Shown: positions 4,550 to 36,514 of the stretch, one piece after another | Position numbering within the stretch: the stretch's first letter is position 1 | Layout of the letters: every line of letters starts with the position of its first letter | Virus record (IMG/VR): IMGVR_UViG_3300013101_000034 | Coordinates: 1 to 36,514 of that record | DNA from: a virus | DNA: 36,514 nt | Reading direction: 5' to 3' (one strand) | The notes under the pieces: model-generated | The model's database searches: none | Told to the model about the DNA's origin: nothing | What the model saw: only the letters and a program-made list of their open reading frames with translations | Position numbers and translations under genes: made by a program

Positions 4550-5281
4550 TTATAATTTGGTAAGTTTATTTTGAACATTACCAATTTTTTTCTGTAAACT
4601 ATCTTTACAATTTTCACTATTCTGTGCTTTGGCACATACCCCCAAACCTGATTTTAACTTTTGCATTCTTAATCTTAAAGCTTTATCTTTTTGTGATTTA
4701 AGACATGCTGCTTTATCAGGTTTACCTTTACACATTCTTGCAGCTTTATCTAAATAATTTTTATAAATTTTAGTTGCTGCAAATGCTACTAATGATACAG
4801 CAGCAGCTCCTGTAACGCCAACTGCTATTGAACTAAGAGAGCCTTTACTAGCTGTATCTACAGCAAGTTTGGCTGCGGCTTTACTTCCTTTTTTAATTAA
4901 AGATTTACTATTTCTAACAGCTTTTTTCATATTGCCATGTAAACCTTGTAACCATGATTGTTGATCTCCTGCTTCTGTAATAAATTCTAATATTACTTTT
5001 GAAGAAGACAAATTGTATTTTGATATCGGACCAAGTTCATGAATCAGTTTATACATTTTATTATCATATTCATAAACTAACTTATGAAATTGTTCCCACA
5101 GTTTATATTCTTTTTTAATATTATATTTTTCTAGTGGGATTTCATTGTTTACTATAACATTCATGATCTGATAATCTGAAGCTTCAACATGTATAAAATA
5201 TTTTAATTCTTGATTATCAGTCATTTCATATATTGTATTTCTACATATTTTTAAAAACAATAAAGAATCTTTTATGTTCAT
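4550..5281 (-). CDS. Virion-associated unknown, paralog A, with central hydrophobic helix and basic Cys-containing tail
   Basis: The start is placed at MNIKDSLLFLKICRN because GAGGG lies just upstream; an in-frame ATG at 5296 falls next to the terminator and lacks a site. The N-terminal 100 residues share a pattern with the next gene upstream: 'LFLK..R', 'EASDYQIM......IP', 'LWEQFHKLV' and 'ELGPIS....SS..ILE'. After this come a basic stretch (MKKAVRNSKSLIKKGSKAAA), an Ala/Val-rich hydrophobic helix (about residues 150-175) and a lysine-rich tail with cysteines (ARMCKGKPDKAACLKSQKDK). The order suggests a soluble head, a membrane-active or tape-like helix and a nucleic-acid-like tail. Function is unknown; its place between tube and hub genes suggests a tail-lumen, injected or assembly protein. 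Confidence 0.6.
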   Translation of the reverse strand: MNIKDSLLFLKICRNTIYEMTDNQELKYFIHVEASDYQIMNVIVNNEIPLEKYNIKKEYKLWEQFHKLVYEYDNKMYKLIHELGPISKYNLSSSKVILEFITEAGDQQSWLQGLHGNMKKAVRNSKSLIKKGSKAAAKLAVDTASKGSLSSIAVGVTGAAAVSLVAFAATKIYKNYLDKAARMCKGKPDKAACLKSQKDKALRLRMQKLKSGLGVCAKAQNSENCKDSLQKKIGNVQNKLTKL

Positions 5282-5297
5282 AAATCCCTCTACCATG

Positions 5298-5354: not shown

Positions 5355-6110
5355 TTATTTTTTATTTTTTTTAGCTTTTATATCTTTTGAGATTTTTGCT
5401 AATTTAGTTGCAGCAACCTGTTTTGCTGCTGGAGTCTTTGCAGCAGCTTTTTTAGCTTTCCACATTTTATAAGCTTTATAAAGACCATAAACACCAGCAA
5501 CAGCAACAGCACCTTTTGCAATATCTGTACCTGATATAGACTTAGCTTTTGCTTTTGCTTCTAAACCTCTTTCTTTTTGTCTATCTCTTACTGCTTTATA
5601 ATCTGCTGCTTGTTTAGTAGTTCTAATTAAAGGTTCATATTCTTTTCTATTTCTTTCACCTTTCAACTTCTGAATTTTCTTATGGGCTGCACTATCTCTT
5701 GTCCAAGTAACCCCAAATTTTTCATTTAAGAATTCGTTAGATAATGTACCATTTTCTTTTGCAAGCTCAAGAATAGGAGCTGCTGAAGAATAACCCATAC
5801 CACTAACAGGACCCATTTCAAATATTATATCATTAATACTTTCTTGGATTTCTTCATCAAAGGTATGAAATTCTTGAACAAGAACTCGTTTAAAAATCTC
5901 CCATACCATTTGTTCATTATCATTATCAAATTTATTTTCAGGCATTTCACCTAAAGTTAAAAGATGCATGATTTCATAATCTGAAGCTTCATTTTGAATA
6001 TAATTAATCAATTCAGTTTTTTCTTCTATATCTGATATTTCAACTGATTCAACAACATCAGTTCTAGCTAGTTTTAGAAAGAATAAACTTTCAAGTGTTG
6101 GATGTAACAT
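5355..6110 (-). CDS. Virion-associated unknown, paralog B, with Ala/Lys-rich C-terminus
   Basis: A 251-residue protein starting MLHPTLESLFFLKLARTDVV after a GGAGG site. It shares with paralog A 'LFFLKLAR', 'YIQNEASDYEIMHLL..GEMP', 'VWEIFKRVLV' and 'FEMGPVSG..YSSAAPILEL', so the two arose by tandem duplication. The second half differs: a charged helix (KIQKLKGERNRKEY), a glycine/alanine hydrophobic patch (AKGAVAVAGVYGLYKAYKMW) and a histone-H1-like tail of Lys/Ala repeats. It follows the tube gene and ends at a strong terminator. I do not recognise the family; an internal or injected virion role is possible. Confidence 0.6.
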   Translation of the reverse strand: MLHPTLESLFFLKLARTDVVESVEISDIEEKTELINYIQNEASDYEIMHLLTLGEMPENKFDNDNEQMVWEIFKRVLVQEFHTFDEEIQESINDIIFEMGPVSGMGYSSAAPILELAKENGTLSNEFLNEKFGVTWTRDSAAHKKIQKLKGERNRKEYEPLIRTTKQAADYKAVRDRQKERGLEAKAKAKSISGTDIAKGAVAVAGVYGLYKAYKMWKAKKAAAKTPAAKQVAATKLAKISKDIKAKKNKK

Positions 6111-27949: not shown

Positions 27950-28408
27950 TTATCCTTTATGATATTTTAAGAATTTTTTAGTATTGTCTGAAATATTTTT
28001 TAATTTCTTTATGTCTTGAATAGTCATCCATTTAATACTTCTGTGTTTCTTAGGTTCATTGTTCTTAATTGTTCCACTATATTTTAATATTTCAAAAGCA
28101 TAAGCATGTACCTTTACTATTTTACCTTCTCTTTTATAATTACCCACCCAATTAAATAATAGTTTATATTCACTAACATTAATATTGAGTTCTTCTTTCA
28201 TTTCTTTTTTAATAGTTTTATCTATACTATCTCCTGGATCTACTTTACCTACAGGTAATGTCCAAAAATTAAATTTAACATGGTCTTGCATAAGAACCTT
28301 GTCTTTATTTTTATTCCATATTACACAAGCTATTCCTTTATGATTTTTTAAGTCACCCTTATTATATAGAATTCCTTCTTTTAGAAATTGTAAGTATTTA
28401 TCAATCAT
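27950..28408 (-). CDS. Nudix hydrolase with capsid-targeting-like N-terminus
   Basis: A 152-residue protein. The Nudix box runs from Gly54 (GKVDPGDSIDKTIKKEMKEE) to Ile76. It keeps the catalytic E-M-K-E-E core but has Asp for the first Glu, Lys for Arg and Asn for the late Gly, all mild changes. WTLPVGK before it is typical. The reaction would be hydrolysis of a nucleoside diphosphate linked to another moiety; the substrate cannot be read. The N-terminus MIDKYLQFLKEG closely matches that of the next gene upstream (MISQYLSYLQES), and both share an AAAAAAGGATTATAT leader. That form resembles T4 capsid-targeting peptides cleaved after (L/I)xE. Virion packaging is inference. Confidence 0.8.
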   Translation of the reverse strand: MIDKYLQFLKEGILYNKGDLKNHKGIACVIWNKNKDKVLMQDHVKFNFWTLPVGKVDPGDSIDKTIKKEMKEELNINVSEYKLLFNWVGNYKREGKIVKVHAYAFEILKYSGTIKNNEPKKHRSIKWMTIQDIKKLKNISDNTKKFLKYHKG

Positions 28409-28422
28409 AATATAATCCTTTT

Positions 28423-28905
28423 TTAAATATTTCCGCTTAATATTTTATAATTCCAAAAATAAGATCTTCTACTTTCATTTCCAAATTTAATAATTCTATA
28501 TTGATTTGATAAATTTGTAATCTTGATCTTACCAATTCTTTTAAATAAAGTTTTGTTTAATATCCATATTTCTTTAGTTTGTTTTGCATCTGATACTAAG
28601 TTTCTCTTGATTATGTCACTATTATGTAATATTTTTAATTTATTATAGTTGTTTGGTTCATAAACATCATATATCTTATTTTTATTATCGTTAATTTTAT
28701 TATACCCAATTGCTAATATATTATATTTAATATCAGGTGATACAGATACCCTTGGTATAATATTATTTTCATAACCCTGTTTAGTCATAAAATTATCTGG
28801 AATTTTTGGTGTTATTATTATTCTTTCTTTATTAGATTGATTAAGATGAAATAATCTATGAGGATAAGTAGACTCTTGTAAATAAGATAAGTATTGTGAT
28901 ATCAT
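28423..28905 (-). CDS. Unknown protein with capsid-targeting-like N-terminus
   Basis: A 160-residue protein. After MISQYLSYLQES it continues YPHRLFHLNQSNKERIIITP, then NNIIPRVSVSPDIKYNILAI and KEIWILNKTLFKRIGKIKI. The order 'FHL ... ITP..P.NF.TK.GYE... PRVS.SP.I ... YDVY ... WIL ... IGKI' recalls a small family of phage proteins of unknown function. The FHL and RVS-SP segments are loosely like ADP-ribosyltransferase-type folds, which I cannot confirm. The ribosome site and N-terminal 12 residues are shared with the downstream Nudix gene. If processed like T4 internal proteins it would lose about 11 residues at L-Q-E. Confidence 0.55.
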   Translation of the reverse strand: MISQYLSYLQESTYPHRLFHLNQSNKERIIITPKIPDNFMTKQGYENNIIPRVSVSPDIKYNILAIGYNKINDNKNKIYDVYEPNNYNKLKILHNSDIIKRNLVSDAKQTKEIWILNKTLFKRIGKIKITNLSNQYRIIKFGNESRRSYFWNYKILSGNI

Positions 28906-30365: not shown

Positions 30366-31349
30366 CTAAACCCCAAATATGTTTCTTTTTTGTATTAAAC
30401 TATCTGGTCCAATTAACTGAGGTTTTTGTGTAAAACCTCCAACATTTAATATTGATATTATATCAGCATGTACAGATTCCCAATTTCTATTCGGGTTAGT
30501 TGAAAGGGTTTGTAATAAACTTGAAGTCATTGCTCCTTGCCACTTGTCATCAATATAAGCATCTGCGCTTGTTTGATTATCTTTACAACCAGATAACAAC
30601 ACATGATCATTACCAATAGATTCACCAACTTTTATAATAGGCAACTCTCTATCAATACTTCTCATTCTTATATCAACAGGTGGTCTTATATATCTAATCT
30701 TATTTGGATTTGAACCGCTAAATTCTATTGTTTTATCAATAGAACCACTATGACACGAATCACATATAAATGTAAAGAAAACTCCATCAGCTTTAGTATT
30801 TAAAATATTTCCAATATCATCATCAGTCAAAGGGTTATTCCAATCTAAATCATGAGGACATAATATTTCATCTAGTTGATCTTCCAATTCATCCTCAACA
30901 CCTCTATCTCTAATTTGAGAACCATGACCAGAATAATGTAATACTAATTCATCTCCTGCAACAATATGATCAACCAACCATGCCATTCTATGCATAATAT
31001 TAGATCCTGTTGCTCTTTCATCAGTTAGTATTCTTATATTATCTGGTTTAAATCCATATCGTTTAATTAATATTTCATACATACCTTTAACATCATTAAC
31101 ACAACCATTAAGGTCAGCATTAAGATTAGGATCATATTTATTTATTCCAATGAGAACAGCAAACTTAGATGGCTCTCTTTGATTATCTATTGACCCTGGA
31201 ATATAATAATCATCCATACTTGTCGCATCAGGGTCACTCCATGGATCAGGTACTTCATTAGCTGTAGTCTCATCATATATCTCAGGAGGAATAGATGTAA
31301 CAGTAAATAAATTTTTAAACCAATTTAATATCATCATTATAAATTTCAT
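30366..31349 (-). CDS. Caspase/metacaspase-like cysteine protease (clan CD) with N-terminal hydrophobic segment
   Basis: A 327-residue protein. Residues 1-18 (MKFIMMILNWFKNLFTV) are a short hydrophobic, amphipathic segment. The catalytic domain starts at FAVLIGINKYDPN (63-75), with D-L-N-G-C-V-N-D-V (79-87), the catalytic His142 in LHYSGHGSQ, the acidic pocket segment DELEDQLDEILCPHD, and the catalytic Cys199 in FICDSCHSGS. The p10-like part has LLSGCKDNQTSADAY and WQGAMTSSLLQTL, then QKPQLIG. All these blocks match complete type I metacaspase/orthocaspase domains, which cleave after basic residues; specificity here is unknown. Its ATG overlaps the TGA of the HAD gene (ATGA). Possible roles are host-protein cleavage, virion protein maturation or blocking host suicide systems. 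The gene is intact, so activity is likely. Confidence 0.88.
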   Translation of the reverse strand: MKFIMMILNWFKNLFTVTSIPPEIYDETTANEVPDPWSDPDATSMDDYYIPGSIDNQREPSKFAVLIGINKYDPNLNADLNGCVNDVKGMYEILIKRYGFKPDNIRILTDERATGSNIMHRMAWLVDHIVAGDELVLHYSGHGSQIRDRGVEDELEDQLDEILCPHDLDWNNPLTDDDIGNILNTKADGVFFTFICDSCHSGSIDKTIEFSGSNPNKIRYIRPPVDIRMRSIDRELPIIKVGESIGNDHVLLSGCKDNQTSADAYIDDKWQGAMTSSLLQTLSTNPNRNWESVHADIISILNVGGFTQKPQLIGPDSLIQKRNIFGV

Positions 31350-31750
31350 ATTTTTATCCCTTGATTGTACATATCATCTAATTTTTGTTGAGCAGAAACC
31401 TCTACATGACTATCATTTATTAATGATTCATCTCCAATTATTGTTCCCTCATTCTTTACGACTTGAATAGCTCTATCATCATAAAATCTTTTAATCTCAG
31501 GTGTTTTAATATTAGTTACTTCAAGTTCTGGCAATCCATTATCATCTAACCAATCAATTATTGCTTCAAGATTATCAGGGTCGTCAGCTCTAGCAGTAAA
31601 TATTACTACCTTTATTCCTTCAGATAACCATTTCTTTACCTTTTCCATCATTTTAGGAATTGGTTTTCCAATAAAATTTCCACCTTTCCACTCATCATGG
31701 TGGGCTAACGTTCCATCCAAATCAACCCCATAGCATACTTGCCTATCCAT
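31346..31750 (-). CDS. HAD-superfamily phosphatase, PNKP-3'-phosphatase-like
   Basis: A 134-residue protein with AGGAGAGG before ATG. Motif I is GVDLDGTLAH (nucleophile Asp10, Asp12), motif II is VVIFTARADD (Thr52), and the late acidic motif is FYDDRAIQV (Asp91, Asp92). No cap domain is present, so it acts on large or end-bound substrates. The DLDGTLA start plus FTAR resembles both polynucleotide 3'-phosphatases such as that of T4 Pnkp and small phage HAD proteins of unknown substrate. It is translationally coupled to the caspase-like gene by ATGA. An RNA ligase further down the operon makes an end-healing role possible. Confidence 0.75.
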   Translation of the reverse strand: MDRQVCYGVDLDGTLAHHDEWKGGNFIGKPIPKMMEKVKKWLSEGIKVVIFTARADDPDNLEAIIDWLDDNGLPELEVTNIKTPEIKRFYDDRAIQVVKNEGTIIGDESLINDSHVEVSAQQKLDDMYNQGIKI

Positions 31751-32179: not shown

Positions 32180-33133
32180 TTAAAATGGGATTTGTAGTTG
32201 AACTCCCCATACAGTTTCATTATCAGTATCCATACCTATAAATGGAGATATGAATAAATTTTCCATCATTGGTAAAGGTTTTCCAATATTGTATTCAATA
32301 GGTGCAATGTATAGATATTCACTATCACTATTAGCTCCAAAACCTACACCAAGAAATCTCCAATCCATATCACCTTTGGTTCTACCATAACTAAATAAAC
32401 TAGCTTCTATTGCTGCAAATGAATCACTAGCAATATTTAATCCTAATGAAAATCTAGGGTTCCACATAAATGATTTTTCTTTTGGTGGTTTTTCTACCCA
32501 GTTAATACTCTTAATATCTATTGGAAATTTTTTATCTTTATCTTTATCAAAAACCTTACTAGTCATATAAGCTTCTACATAAGCATCTTTTCTTCCACCC
32601 TTACCATCTTCCTCTCCAATAGCAACATTAGTATAAAGATCTATAGGATATGTACCAGTTGTCCATTTTTTTTCTCCTTTAATATTTGGACTATACATAG
32701 CCCAACCCCAAGGAATTTCATCTTTCTCACCCTTACCCATATCTATCTCTTTTTTTATAGTTACCTCACTATAATTTTTAGATGCATCAGTTTTATCCAC
32801 ATAATTATAACCTACCTGTTCTTTAAAGTCTTGCTTTAATTGAGCTACTATATTTCCTATAGCTATTATTTGTTGATCTCTTGCTTTAACTTCTTCTGTT
32901 ATTTGTTTATTTAATAATTTTATCTGTTCTTGTAATAATTTATTATTATACTCTATTCTTTTAGAAGCAATCCCCTGACCTAGTTGAATCATCTGTTCAT
33001 TATATAATGTTTCTTTGGCATTAAAGTAATCCATAACTTGACCAATTAAAGGAGTCACAATAAAAAAACATCCAACTATAACTGCTATAGTGGATACTGA
33101 TTTAACTGTTATCCATATTTTTTCAAAATTCAT
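32180..33133 (-). CDS. Envelope-spanning-type protein: N-terminal TM helix, coiled coil, beta-rich C-terminus
   Basis: The start is set at MNFEKIWITVKSVSTIAVIV (ATG 33133, GAGGTG just upstream); a longer in-frame GTG start would overlap the ribosome site. Residues 8-32 are a membrane helix. Residues about 40-110 form a coiled coil (NEQMIQLGQGIASKRIEYNN, then KLLQEQIKLLNKQI). The remaining 200 residues are beta-rich with alternating aromatic strands and end V-W-G-V-Q-L-Q-I-P-F, an aromatic C-terminus like outer-membrane beta-barrels. If exported this could bridge inner and outer membranes, as spanins do, but its large beta domain is unlike known spanins. A host-receptor-blocking or envelope-modifying role is also possible. 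Confidence 0.55.
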   Translation of the reverse strand: MNFEKIWITVKSVSTIAVIVGCFFIVTPLIGQVMDYFNAKETLYNEQMIQLGQGIASKRIEYNNKLLQEQIKLLNKQITEEVKARDQQIIAIGNIVAQLKQDFKEQVGYNYVDKTDASKNYSEVTIKKEIDMGKGEKDEIPWGWAMYSPNIKGEKKWTTGTYPIDLYTNVAIGEEDGKGGRKDAYVEAYMTSKVFDKDKDKKFPIDIKSINWVEKPPKEKSFMWNPRFSLGLNIASDSFAAIEASLFSYGRTKGDMDWRFLGVGFGANSDSEYLYIAPIEYNIGKPLPMMENLFISPFIGMDTDNETVWGVQLQIPF

Positions 33134-33153
33134 TTTACACCTCACTTATATAA

Positions 33154-33468
33154 TTATTCTTTGTTAGAAACAATCTTTAAATAGTTTCTATTGTTTGGTT
33201 TATCTATATTATCTCTTTGTTGAATTTTACTTTTAGTTGAGTTTTTAACAAAAGCTAAAGTTTCTAAAATTTGTTTTTTACATTGTATTAATCTAACATT
33301 TAGTTCTGGCCATTTTAAGCTAGAAGCCATATCATTAACTGATGTAATAGAATTTTCTATTGCTCTCATGTGAGAAACAAATAACTTTAACTGCTCTACT
33401 TCTCTACTAATATCTTTCTTATTTTCATTTAGAGACTTATTACCCCCATTAATTATTTTAAAAGACAT
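33154..33468 (-). CDS. Hypothetical helical protein, first gene of accessory operon
   Basis: A 104-residue protein with AGGAG 7-8 bases before ATG. It is mostly helical and charged (MSFKIINGGNKSLNENKKDI, then REVEQLKLFVSHMRAIEN), has a helix-turn near WPELNVRLIQCKKQILETLA and a basic tail. I do not recognise it. It heads the leftward accessory operon, close to a promoter-like motif at 33489-33503, which suggests early translation within that transcript. Confidence 0.55.
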   Translation of the reverse strand: MSFKIINGGNKSLNENKKDISREVEQLKLFVSHMRAIENSITSVNDMASSLKWPELNVRLIQCKKQILETLAFVKNSTKSKIQQRDNIDKPNNRNYLKIVSNKE

Positions 33469-33598: not shown

Positions 33599-34063
33599 AT
33601 GATAATCAAACCAATATGTCATGAAATATATCCTCAAGGGTGTATAGTTTTAGCAAGTTGTAATAAAAAGTGTGAAGATTATATGATATTAGTTAAAGAA
33701 AAAGCTAAAAGAATAAATAGAGATATTAGAACAACAACGCCATTTGGTTTTACTAGACAAAGTTTATATAAATATTTAAGAAATAAGTCATCATGTGCTG
33801 TTTGTGGGAATGATGAAATTGTATGGTCTACTAGACGAAGCTTTGGATCGAATGGAGTTTTAATAGTATCTAATGCACAATGTTCTAATTGTTTAATTGA
33901 ATATAGTATTCAGAGATCTGACATATTAAAAGAGGTTACTTATTTGGAACCATTTAGAAGTCAAGCTTCTCCTTTTGTACCAACTAAATTTCTTAGATTA
34001 TTTAATACTATAGAAAAGGAATTTCAACAAAATGTTAATTCAAGAAATAAAATACATATGTAA
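33599..34063 (+). CDS. Cys-rich paralog 1 (N-terminal Cys cluster plus zinc-ribbon pairs)
   Basis: A 154-residue protein with AAAGGAAA upstream. The N-terminal cluster is ICHEIYPQGCIVLASCNKKC (C-x7-C-x5-C-x3-C). A second set is SCAVCGNDE with NAQCSNCLIEYS about 35 residues later, forming a CxxC...CxxC ribbon. Between them is a basic linker (KYLRNKSS). The same cluster opens four further genes downstream, each overlapping the previous one. No family is recognised; metal-binding regulator, RNA-binding or host-takeover protein are all possible. It ends 32 bases inside the next gene. Confidence 0.7.
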   Translation: MIIKPICHEIYPQGCIVLASCNKKCEDYMILVKEKAKRINRDIRTTTPFGFTRQSLYKYLRNKSSCAVCGNDEIVWSTRRSFGSNGVLIVSNAQCSNCLIEYSIQRSDILKEVTYLEPFRSQASPFVPTKFLRLFNTIEKEFQQNVNSRNKIHM

Positions 34064-34490
34064 AGATTGTATAGTTTATCCAACATGTACTAAGTTATGT
34101 TATAAATTTATAGATGAAGCTTCTTCTTTTCTAATAGATATAGAGAAAAATCAATTACCTGATTTATTTAAAAAATTAAGAAAAGAAGAAAGATGTTTGT
34201 TATGTGGTAATGCAAAATGTGAATCATCAATAACTACTACACATTCACATAATAAAGGATCACATATAAATGCTTGGTTATATTGTATTTTTTGTGAAAC
34301 TGTTTATAATATAGAATTTTATAAAGTTGAGCCTTTCTTAGCTGATATATATTGGGATTTTGATGGTGGTTCTAATGGGAATATGTTAGGTGTTAATTTT
34401 AAAAAATCTTTGGAAATTATAGATAATTGGAAAATAGATGAACTTATAACAAGTAATTTATTAAAGGAGAAAATTAATGGCAATAAATAA
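34032..34490 (+). CDS. Cys-rich paralog 2
   Basis: A 152-residue protein starting MLIQEIKYICKDCIVYPTCT, so the cluster is C-x2-C-x5-C-x3-C (CKDCIVYPTCTKLC). A ribbon follows with RCLLCGNAKCESS and later YCIFCETVYNIEFY. After it comes VEPFLADIYWDFDGG, a segment echoing 'YLEPF' in paralog 1. It overlaps paralog 1 by 32 bases and paralog 3 by 14. Its ribosome site is AAAGGAA inside the preceding gene. Confidence 0.7.
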   Translation: MLIQEIKYICKDCIVYPTCTKLCYKFIDEASSFLIDIEKNQLPDLFKKLRKEERCLLCGNAKCESSITTTHSHNKGSHINAWLYCIFCETVYNIEFYKVEPFLADIYWDFDGGSNGNMLGVNFKKSLEIIDNWKIDELITSNLLKEKINGNK

Positions 34491-34677
34491 ACATTTTCAA
34501 AAGACATATTGTCAAATATATAATTCAGATTGTTTATTATTACCATGTTGTAGTAAAATGTGTGATGTAATAGCAAATCAATACATGAAGGATTTCTTAA
34601 AGTCAATACCAGCAGAAGCTACATTTTATAAACCTATAAAAAATGAATATGATAAATGGAGCAAATCAAATGAATAA
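34477..34677 (+). CDS. Cys-rich paralog 3, short form lacking the zinc ribbon
   Basis: A 66-residue protein with AAAGGAG upstream. It keeps only the N-terminal cluster YCQIYNSDCLLLPCCSKMC (C-x6-C-x5-C-x3-C with an extra Cys) followed by a helical tail (DVIANQYMKDFLKSIPAEA). It looks like a naturally minimal version of the family, or a truncated copy that lost the ribbon. The array context and ribosome site argue that it is still expressed. Confidence 0.6.
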   Translation: MAINKHFQKTYCQIYNSDCLLLPCCSKMCDVIANQYMKDFLKSIPAEATFYKPIKNEYDKWSKSNE

Positions 34678-35062
34678 TATTATGAGAAGTATATGTGATG
34701 ATTGTTTGGTTTTACCTACTTGTGATATATCATGTGACAAAGTAGAATCAAAGATACAGAATATTGAAATTCATTTGGAATCTGAATTTGCACTTGACAT
34801 TATAATAAATAAACATCACTGTCCTATATGTGGTAGAAATGAATGTTCATATTATGAAGATACACATTCAACAAAACAAAATGTTATGTGTTGTTTTTGT
34901 TACTATATTTATAATATTCATTTATATAAAAAGAGTATAGAGTTAAGAAATACTCGGTTTCATGGTAATATGTTTGCGACAAAAAAGACATTTAAAAGAT
35001 ATGTTAAATATTTAAGAGATTCAAATTTAACGGAAGGGTTTATTAAATATGATATGCAATGA
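34670..35062 (+). CDS. Cys-rich paralog 4
   Basis: The start is placed at MNNIMRSICDDCLVLPTCDI because TGGAG lies 8 bases upstream; an earlier in-frame ATG at 34643 lacks a site. The cluster is CDDCLVLPTCDISC. The ribbon is HHCPICGRNECSYY with VMCCFCYYIYNIHLY, similar to paralog 2's YCIFCETVYNIEFY. It overlaps paralog 3 by 8 bases. The tail is basic (KKTFKRYVKYLRDSN). Confidence 0.65.
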   Translation: MNNIMRSICDDCLVLPTCDISCDKVESKIQNIEIHLESEFALDIIINKHHCPICGRNECSYYEDTHSTKQNVMCCFCYYIYNIHLYKKSIELRNTRFHGNMFATKKTFKRYVKYLRDSNLTEGFIKYDMQ

Positions 35063-35444
35063 GGTTAATCCTAATTGTTTAATTAAATCATGTTGTAGTG
35101 AAAAATGCCAATCAGTTATTGATTTAATTTCTAAAAAACAAAAAAATATAGATGAGTTTGATTATGATAATTTATTTAAGAGTATGATAAAGAATGAATG
35201 GTGTCCAATTTGTGGTAAAGATAGATTCCATTGTTCCAAAGTAAATAAACTTTTATATATAATAGATTGTCAATATTGTTGGACTAGATTTTCACTTGGA
35301 AGAAATAATCTTTTTGATAATCATTTAACTAAATGGGAAATAAAAAATGTGTATTATAATAAGCTTAAAATAAATTTTATTGGAACTGATAATAAATTAA
35401 TAAAAGATATAATTAAAGAAAATAAAATAAGGAGTGTAATATGA
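35049..35444 (+). CDS. Cys-rich paralog 5
   Basis: A 131-residue protein with GGAAGGG about 10 bases upstream of the ATG. The cluster is MICNEVNPNCLIKSCCSEKC (C-x6-C-x5-C-x3-C plus one extra Cys). The ribbon is EWCPICGKDRFHC with IDCQYCWTRFSLGR. The C-terminus is basic and helical (NKLIKDIIKENKIRSVI). It overlaps paralog 4 by 14 bases, and its TGA overlaps the next ATG (ATGA), completing the co-translated array. Confidence 0.65.
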   Translation: MICNEVNPNCLIKSCCSEKCQSVIDLISKKQKNIDEFDYDNLFKSMIKNEWCPICGKDRFHCSKVNKLLYIIDCQYCWTRFSLGRNNLFDNHLTKWEIKNVYYNKLKINFIGTDNKLIKDIIKENKIRSVI

Positions 35445-36098: not shown

Positions 36099-36201
36099 AG
36101 AAAAGAAAAATTGGTTTGACATATTAATGATATATTTCATTGCTTGTGGTATTGGGTTTAATGTTTTATTAATAACTTTATTATGGGGGTGGATATTATG
36201 A
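36091..36201 (+). CDS. 36-residue single-pass membrane protein
   Basis: It starts MAKEKKNWFDILMIYFIACG and ends in a hydrophobic stretch (L-L-W-G-W-I-L). A basic N-terminus and one TM helix imply a cytoplasmic N-terminus. It overlaps the zinc-ribbon gene by 8 bases, has AAAGGAA upstream, and its TGA overlaps the next ATG (ATGA). The tight coupling supports a real gene. No family is recognised. Confidence 0.6.
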   Translation: MAKEKKNWFDILMIYFIACGIGFNVLLITLLWGWIL

Positions 36202-36514
36202 AAGCAATATATGCAGGTAGTTTTAATTTATTTCATGCTGGACATTATTATGTTTATTGTAAAGCATGTAATATGTTTGGAAAAGATAATGTGTGGTTAT
36301 GTGTTGCTATAAATCCTGATAAAGATATTGATCCTGAATTTATTAAATGGACTCTTAATCCAATTACACCTAATGTTATTATAACAAAAGGTTTAGTAAC
36401 AAATGAAAACCCTGATGTATTAATTCGTGGATTAAGAGATACCATGGATTTAGCATCAGAAATGACTATGGCTGATTGGAATGAAAAATTAGGTTGTGAT
36501 ACTGTATTTATTCC
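36198..36514 (+). CDS. coaD: Phosphopantetheine adenylyltransferase (CoaD-like), C-terminus cut by window edge
   Basis: From ATG 36198 the frame is open to the right edge (105 full codons). It starts MKAIYAGSFNLFHAGHYYVY, with the nucleotidyltransferase HxGH motif in HAGH. Later it has DVLIRGLRDTMDLASEMTMA followed by D-W-N-E-K-L-G-C-D-T-V-F-I-P. This is the CoaD pattern 'RGLR...D.E.E..M...N..L...(T)VF..P'. CoaD joins AMP to 4'-phosphopantetheine in coenzyme A synthesis. NMN adenylyltransferase has the same HxGH, but the RGLR block favours CoaD. It would supply CoA or handle a related nucleotide during infection; the missing end leaves this open. Confidence 0.75.
   Translation, partial: MKAIYAGSFNLFHAGHYYVYCKACNMFGKDNVWLCVAINPDKDIDPEFIKWTLNPITPNVIITKGLVTNENPDVLIRGLRDTMDLASEMTMADWNEKLGCDTVFI

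Follow-up and report, generated by a model that had tools for sequence, protein, structure and literature searches.

A metacaspase gene carried by bacteriophages: a complete, predicted membrane-tethered protease with a possible host-directed role

Does a bacteriophage encode a complete metacaspase and, if so, what could it use the enzyme for? Enzymes of this kind have been linked to cell death in both eukaryotes and bacteria, and the question is raised by an ORF in the window, as we call the whole stretch of DNA analyzed, a 36.5-kb IMG/VR virus record with 29% G+C. Baseplate, tail-tube and tail-sheath genes of a myophage occupy its first part (1-9.4 kb), and the phage origin of the window is certain. 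The tail gene cluster also holds two tandem paralogs on the minus strand (4550-5296 and 5355-6110; 33% identity, E-value = 3e-14). At the other end, a run of small Cys-rich paralogs (33599-35444, plus strand; mutual E-values down to 1e-11) lies on the strand opposite to the structural genes and has one relative in L005, a metacaspase locus described below. An incomplete ORF at 36183-36512 (plus strand) encodes a nucleotidyltransferase resembling the pantetheine-phosphate adenylyltransferase CoaD (E-value = 9e-13, below the cut-off).

The metacaspase and its active site

The ORF opens with an ATG at 31349, its stop codon ends at 30366, and its 327 codons encode a complete metacaspase of peptidase family C14B. 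The gene and the residues discussed here are:

30366-31349, minus strand: complete metacaspase gene, 327 aa (ORF, Pfam C14, phmmer, AlphaFold2 and fold match)
30924-30926, minus strand: catalytic His142
30753-30755, minus strand: catalytic Cys199
30759-30761, minus strand: Asp197 of the predicted basic S1 pocket, with C83, D86 and S140 (invariant; comparison with TbMCA2)
30693-30695, minus strand: Arg219 in the p20-p10 linker, candidate self-cleavage site

C14 is the only Pfam family that the protein matches (PF00656, Peptidase_C14; 109.3 bits against a cut-off of 21.4, E-value = 3e-31), with residues 62-312 aligned to positions 2-223 of the 233 in the profile; the same search found no S77/S78 profile on it. 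Among solved proteins, the closest by sequence are yeast Yca1 (4f6o; phmmer E-value = 5.7e-34), Arabidopsis metacaspases 4 and 9 and T. brucei MCA2, and the best matches are all metacaspases with the sole exception of GSU0716. An AlphaFold2 model built with 34 homologs reached a pLDDT of 80 (core mostly above 90) and a pTM of 0.76. Its VIA Z-scores were 27.4 for AtMC4, 26.5 for AtMC9, 24.4 for Geobacter GSU0716 and 21.5 for Yca1, and Foldseek returned the clan CD fold with E-values down to 7.7e-20. The initial annotation had called the ORF a clan CD protease, to be checked by structure prediction and a profile search, and both analyses agree with it; the motifs that it had read (H142 in YSGHGSQ, C199 in DSCHSG, SGCKDNQTSAD and QGAMTSSLL) are all located as described.

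Both the p20 and p10 parts are present. The p20 part precedes p10, which is the type I order, and approximately 50 residues separate Cys199 from the p10 strand that the model places at residue 248. Because the Pro/Gln-rich or zinc-finger prodomain of type I enzymes is absent, its place being taken by a helix and an acidic linker, we term the enzyme type I-like. Assignment to the metazoan-type caspases (C14A) was rejected, as the Asp-specific S1 pocket is absent and acidic pocket residues of the metacaspase type are found instead. By every feature tested this is an ordinary metacaspase, and its novelty lies in its carrier.

Conservation was studied in 59 distinct viral sequences. All 58 that cover H142, C199, S140 and D197 keep these residues, as do all 56 that cover C83 and D86; the counts are partly built in for the His and C83 because the patterns of the first IMG/VR scan surround them, with C199, D197 and D176 lying outside those patterns. 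The His and Cys motifs read (Y/F)SGHG and D(S/C)CHSG. A second scan, with patterns that include neither catalytic motif, gave 10 further homologs long enough to show both, and the dyad is intact in all 10. Loss of the His/Cys pair in homologs, which the initial annotation had raised, was thus seen in none of them. The window protein is almost certainly an active protease.

Metacaspases cleave after Arg or Lys. The S1 pocket proposed for TbMCA2 consists of Cys92, Asp95, Ser156 and Asp211 (PMC4357240), and in a motif alignment C83, D86, S140 and D197 correspond to these four residues. The initial annotation had considered either a basic or an acidic P1 residue; by analogy, the conserved pocket makes a basic one highly likely, unlike the aspartate of caspases. 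For the TbMCA2 Ca2+ ligands (Asp173, 189, 190 and 220), D157 and D176 are nearly invariant and D177 is kept in 37 of the 59 rows; Asp220 has no conserved counterpart among these viral rows. Judging from the solved metacaspases, the protease is probably Ca2+-dependent. Arg219 (Arg in 50 of the 59 rows, Lys in another 4) is a candidate site of self-cleavage.

Two metacaspases of the set, at L060:6450-8594 and L063:4801-6795, are interrupted by an intein within the catalytic His motif (SGHG / CFSGDTR...VFVHN / SQ). The Intein_splicing E-values are 7e-21 and 1e-16, respectively, with weak HNH matches, and the two loci differ strongly in G+C content (43 and 58%). The intein is absent from L150, which is 76% identical to L060 outside the insert.

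Predicted anchor, distribution and lineage

Upstream of the catalytic domain two segments were distinguished:

31308-31346, minus strand: residues 2-14, predicted to form an amphipathic, hydrophobic helix at the N-terminus (KFIMMILNWFKNL) and likely to anchor the protein in a membrane (hydrophobic moment 0.62; helix in the AlphaFold2 model)
31167-31307, minus strand: residues 15-61, a disordered, acidic linker that connects the anchor to the protease (pLDDT approximately 45-55; sequence)

The model places a helix at residues 2-14, with a pLDDT of approximately 83 over residues 1-10, in line with the hydrophobic, membrane-associating N-terminal segment of the initial annotation. We consider it likely that the window metacaspase is membrane-tethered through this predicted anchor. 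N-termini in the lineage of the window carry 30-90 extra residues. An amphipathic, Trp/Phe-rich starting helix is found in the window and in L005, L006, L013, L012, L019 (segment MTWWAAFIDWIQNLFKSS, read by eye), L032, L060 and L150. L009, L010 and L161 have a true TM segment followed by a Lys/Arg-rich stretch, from which we infer a cytosolic orientation of the protease. L008 and L011, whose short amphipathic segments contain Cys and have a low mean hydrophobicity, were scored as anchored by eye. In most of the 46 bacterial homologs the domain begins only a few residues from the N-terminus, and almost none has an anchor. N-terminal TM segments have already been reported for some bacterial metacaspases (PMC3501461). 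On the tree, 4 changes suffice for the anchor state, whereas shuffled labels require 12.4; a single clade of anchored forms was not rejected (p-AU 0.34). As the segments vary in sequence yet keep their character, selection for membrane attachment is suggested.

A scan of IMG/VR with the single protein gave no match; an alignment-based scan of 2.9 million contigs found 61 loci, and the second scan added approximately 10 contigs. The family thus totals about 70 IMG/VR contigs, the largest of 527 kb. Exactly one C14 gene was present in each of the 15 phage records tested, 11 of which exceed 200 kb; a terminase gene was detected in 15 of 19 records and a tail-sheath match in 8 of these 19. PHROGs holds no family matching the window metacaspase, and the 50,697 phage genomes of INPHARED gave a single match, the unannotated 485-kb phage LR745208.1. 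The gene is rare among phages yet recurrent, and large genomes are well represented. The initial annotation had proposed looking for homologs with the same neighbours in other large phages: homologs were found there, and the neighbours are the same only in L005 and L013.

When bacterial homologs were included in the tree, L005, L006 and L013 formed a fully supported group with the window, and five further phages joined them at lower support, so that this lineage has at least nine members, all from phages and none from bacteria. Phage metacaspases as a whole fall in several groups. Since a single origin for all phage copies was also weakly rejected (p-AU 0.043), phages probably acquired metacaspases several times. 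Could the gene, then, be a recently acquired host gene, a passenger useless to the phage? In favour of this, phylogenetically near bacterial metacaspases reach up to approximately 43-45% identity. However, the gene is under purifying selection (dN 0.24-0.43; dS approximately 0.8 and upward, partly saturated), its lineage of at least nine members is exclusively phage, and the catalytic residues are intact throughout. This explanation is strongly disfavoured. With all catalytic residues preserved in relatives on about 70 viral contigs, phages evidently use the metacaspase.

Gene neighbourhood and alternative roles

The metacaspase closes a conserved cassette and is followed by an HD-like gene:

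33154-33468, minus strand: 104-aa protein that opens the cassette (ORF; conserved cassette)
32180-33145, minus strand: 321-aa protein with an N-terminal TM segment, a coiled coil and a strand-rich C-terminus; matches no known family, conserved only in L005 and L013
31817-32164, minus strand: 115-aa protein containing a single TM segment and weakly matching the MscS beta domain; shared with L005 and L013 alone
31346-31750, minus strand: HAD-like hydrolase gene overlapping the metacaspase start (phrog_1238); beside the metacaspase in L005 and L013, approximately 1 kb away in L011
29105-29674, minus strand: downstream HD-like hydrolase gene (phrog_5889, E-value = 3.9e-15); kept in L005 and L013

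This order (104 aa, 321 aa, 115 aa, HAD-like, metacaspase, then HD-like) is kept in L005 and in L013, the 207-kb phage G004, which is the nearest large relative of the window phage. The HAD-like stop and the metacaspase start overlap as ATGA (31346-31349), consistent with the translational coupling to a HAD phosphatase claimed at first. The HAD assignment is plausible given the DLDGTLA motif and phrog_1238 (E-value = 4.5e-13), with Pfam and NCBIfam matches all below their cut-offs. The L005 ortholog of the HD-like gene has a Pfam HD match. An operon with an MscS-like and an envelope protein had also been described: the cassette indeed persists in L005 and L013, but the MscS match concerns the beta domain only and is sub-threshold (18.0 bits, cut-off 20.2), and the supposed envelope protein, of 321 aa, belongs to no family and gave an unusable fold model (pLDDT 39). 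Beyond L005 and L013, no homolog of the 321-aa or the 115-aa protein was found, so the two reveal no function. In the same surroundings, L005:9446-9928, two genes downstream of the metacaspase, has a weak macro-domain match (E-value = 8e-4, below the cut-off), and a similar ORF directly follows the metacaspase of L013 (8814-9269).

Expression timing could not be read from T4-type late promoters (TATAAATA), as 18 were found and 14 are expected by chance; sigma-70 promoter and terminator scans were likewise at chance level. The metacaspase lies in a long block on the same strand as the tail genes, so it may act late, in connection with the virion or with lysis.

A lysis-timing or envelope-breaking protease would act with the TM proteins of the cassette, which in three phages comprises one protein with a TM segment and the MscS-beta match and another with a TM segment and a coiled coil. 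A holin-like gene of 116 aa after the metacaspase in L011, and a YkuD gene adjoining the metacaspase in one clade, point the same way. Yet the genes flanking phage metacaspases encode membrane proteins no more often than other genes of these loci do (23/179 vs 82/623, p = 1). The neighbourhood, which had been thought suggestive, thus does not hold as a general rule, being kept only in L005 and L013, and a lytic function is improbable.

Jumbo phages process many head proteins, and with the metacaspase sharing a strand with the tail genes of the window, it could act in prohead or tail maturation, or be an internal protein that is ejected, as in the virion-protein cleavage suggested by the initial annotation. 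However, 7 of 17 metacaspase phage records, G004 among them, also encode a canonical S77 prohead protease, which makes a capsid maturation enzyme unlikely and leaves the metacaspase free for another job; S78 was absent from the metacaspase phage records searched. A membrane anchor is also ill-suited to a capsid protein, and the window metacaspase does not have the capsid-targeting-like N-terminus present on two nearby proteins. Virion processing is therefore also a poor candidate.

Those two adjacent proteins (27950-28408 and 28423-28905, minus strand) have N-termini like the T4 capsid-targeting sequence (MIDKYLQFLKE and MISQYLSYLQE), one of them is a NUDIX hydrolase, and they may be packaged and ejected; the pattern matches 2 of 3882 internal Met sites. 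L011 encodes one protein with a similar N-terminus. Several unrelated genes of L012 and L060 share an N-terminal motif like (I/V)A.EL.KIA(K/R).L, perhaps another targeting tag.

Caspase-like proteases act in bacterial anti-phage systems, and the phage enzyme could belong to a conflict between replicons, either disarming host suicide, an interference also proposed in the initial annotation, for example if it cuts caspase-activated effectors or competes for them, or killing or excluding on superinfection. The PADLOC "caspase" model matches the domain (E-value = 2.5e-18) and phylogenetically close bacterial metacaspases exist. Against this, the match covers the shared domain only, the protease stands alone with no sensor or adaptor domain, and no known defence-system partner gene appeared among the seven cassette and flanking proteins scanned (six neighbours). 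On these grounds a caspase-containing anti-phage defence system was rejected, and the wider conflict explanation is unlikely.

A different order is conserved in another phage clade (approximately 10 contigs: L026, L034, L035, L037, L041, L042, L043, L048, L056 and L059), namely ClpX, YkuD, metacaspase, Hsp20, ClpS and a SufBD-like gene; some contigs show part of it only, and some begin only after the upstream genes. ClpS is an N-degron adaptor. Its rejection as a general partner of phage metacaspases followed from its presence in only 4 of 24 records. From the order of this one clade, where ClpX and YkuD precede the metacaspase and Hsp20 and ClpS follow it, phage metacaspases might be the cutting step of a phage-run protein turnover, in which host proteins cut after Arg/Lys would pass with new N-termini to Clp proteolysis, membrane-tethered forms like that of the window aiming the same activity at membrane proteins. 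We regard this as speculative and very doubtful.

A host-directed protease and its known relatives

Our preferred proposal is that the phage produces this type I-like metacaspase (C14B) inside the infected cell, where the N-terminal helix probably sets the protease on the inner membrane via the flexible acidic linker. In the cytosol, Ca2+, cleavage of its own p20-p10 linker, or both would activate it, and it would cut selected proteins after Arg or Lys. The likeliest substrates would be host proteins at or near the membrane, hence a role in host takeover. A survey of jumbo phages took patchy distribution as a sign of host-directed peptidases (PMC7824862), and the patchy distribution, solitary copy and membrane tether seen here fit a protease acting on host proteins. 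On the other side, no neighbour indicates a substrate, the cassette genes are family-less and occur in three phages only, and the TbMCA2 Asp220 counterpart is not conserved. We put the chance that the metacaspase is mainly host-directed, with host substrates that we infer, at about one half, and the complete proposal of a membrane-tethered Arg/Lys protease cutting host proteins in infection is just as evenly balanced.

A conserved, catalytically intact metacaspase family in large bacteriophages would show that phages deploy this enzyme too, and a C199A mutant offers a simple genetic handle on whether caspase-fold proteases serve host takeover or act against host suicide. Literature searches found only giant-virus cases of viral metacaspases, with an earlier mention of phage ones possible in the bioRxiv preprints and the majority of subscription papers, which lay outside their reach. 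In the survey of 224 jumbo-phage genomes, where phage peptidases are discussed, the word caspase is absent from the main text (PMC7824862).

Compared with type I (Yca1, T. brucei MCA2) and plant type II enzymes (AtMC4, AtMC9), the window enzyme shares the p20-p10 order, the His/Cys dyad, the S1 pocket, the fold (Z 21-27) and, at least broadly, three of four Ca2+ ligand positions, the one corresponding to Asp220 of TbMCA2 not being conserved. It differs in being phage-encoded and in having an amphipathic helix and acidic linker in place of the Pro/Gln-rich or zinc-finger prodomain. Bacterial stand-alone metacaspases (Desulfobacterota, Nitrospirota, Chloroflexota and others; L066-L145) have a single catalytic domain with the same motifs and up to approximately 45% identity, but nearly all begin a few residues before the domain and are anchorless, whereas the window lineage is phage-only. 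GSU0716 of Geobacter sulfurreducens (PDB 3bij) bears a bacterial C14 domain that is almost equal in size (Z 24.4), with lower sequence similarity (E-value = 1.8e-15). The metacaspase of LR745208.1, an uncultured phage that is the same as L025, is 37% identical over 79%, but it belongs to another tree lineage and is devoid of the N-terminal anchor. Structure matches of the model in BFVD are almost all from giant eukaryotic viruses, and metacaspases of Medusavirus, for which a cell-death role has been suggested (PMC6450098), Heterosigma akashiwo virus 01, Fadolivirus and Clandestinovirus are its best matches among viral structures. These are also virus-encoded, but their hosts are eukaryotic and the top Foldseek matches are 18-33% identical. 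The window thus presents a known kind of enzyme in an undescribed setting, the bacteriophage carrier being what is new.
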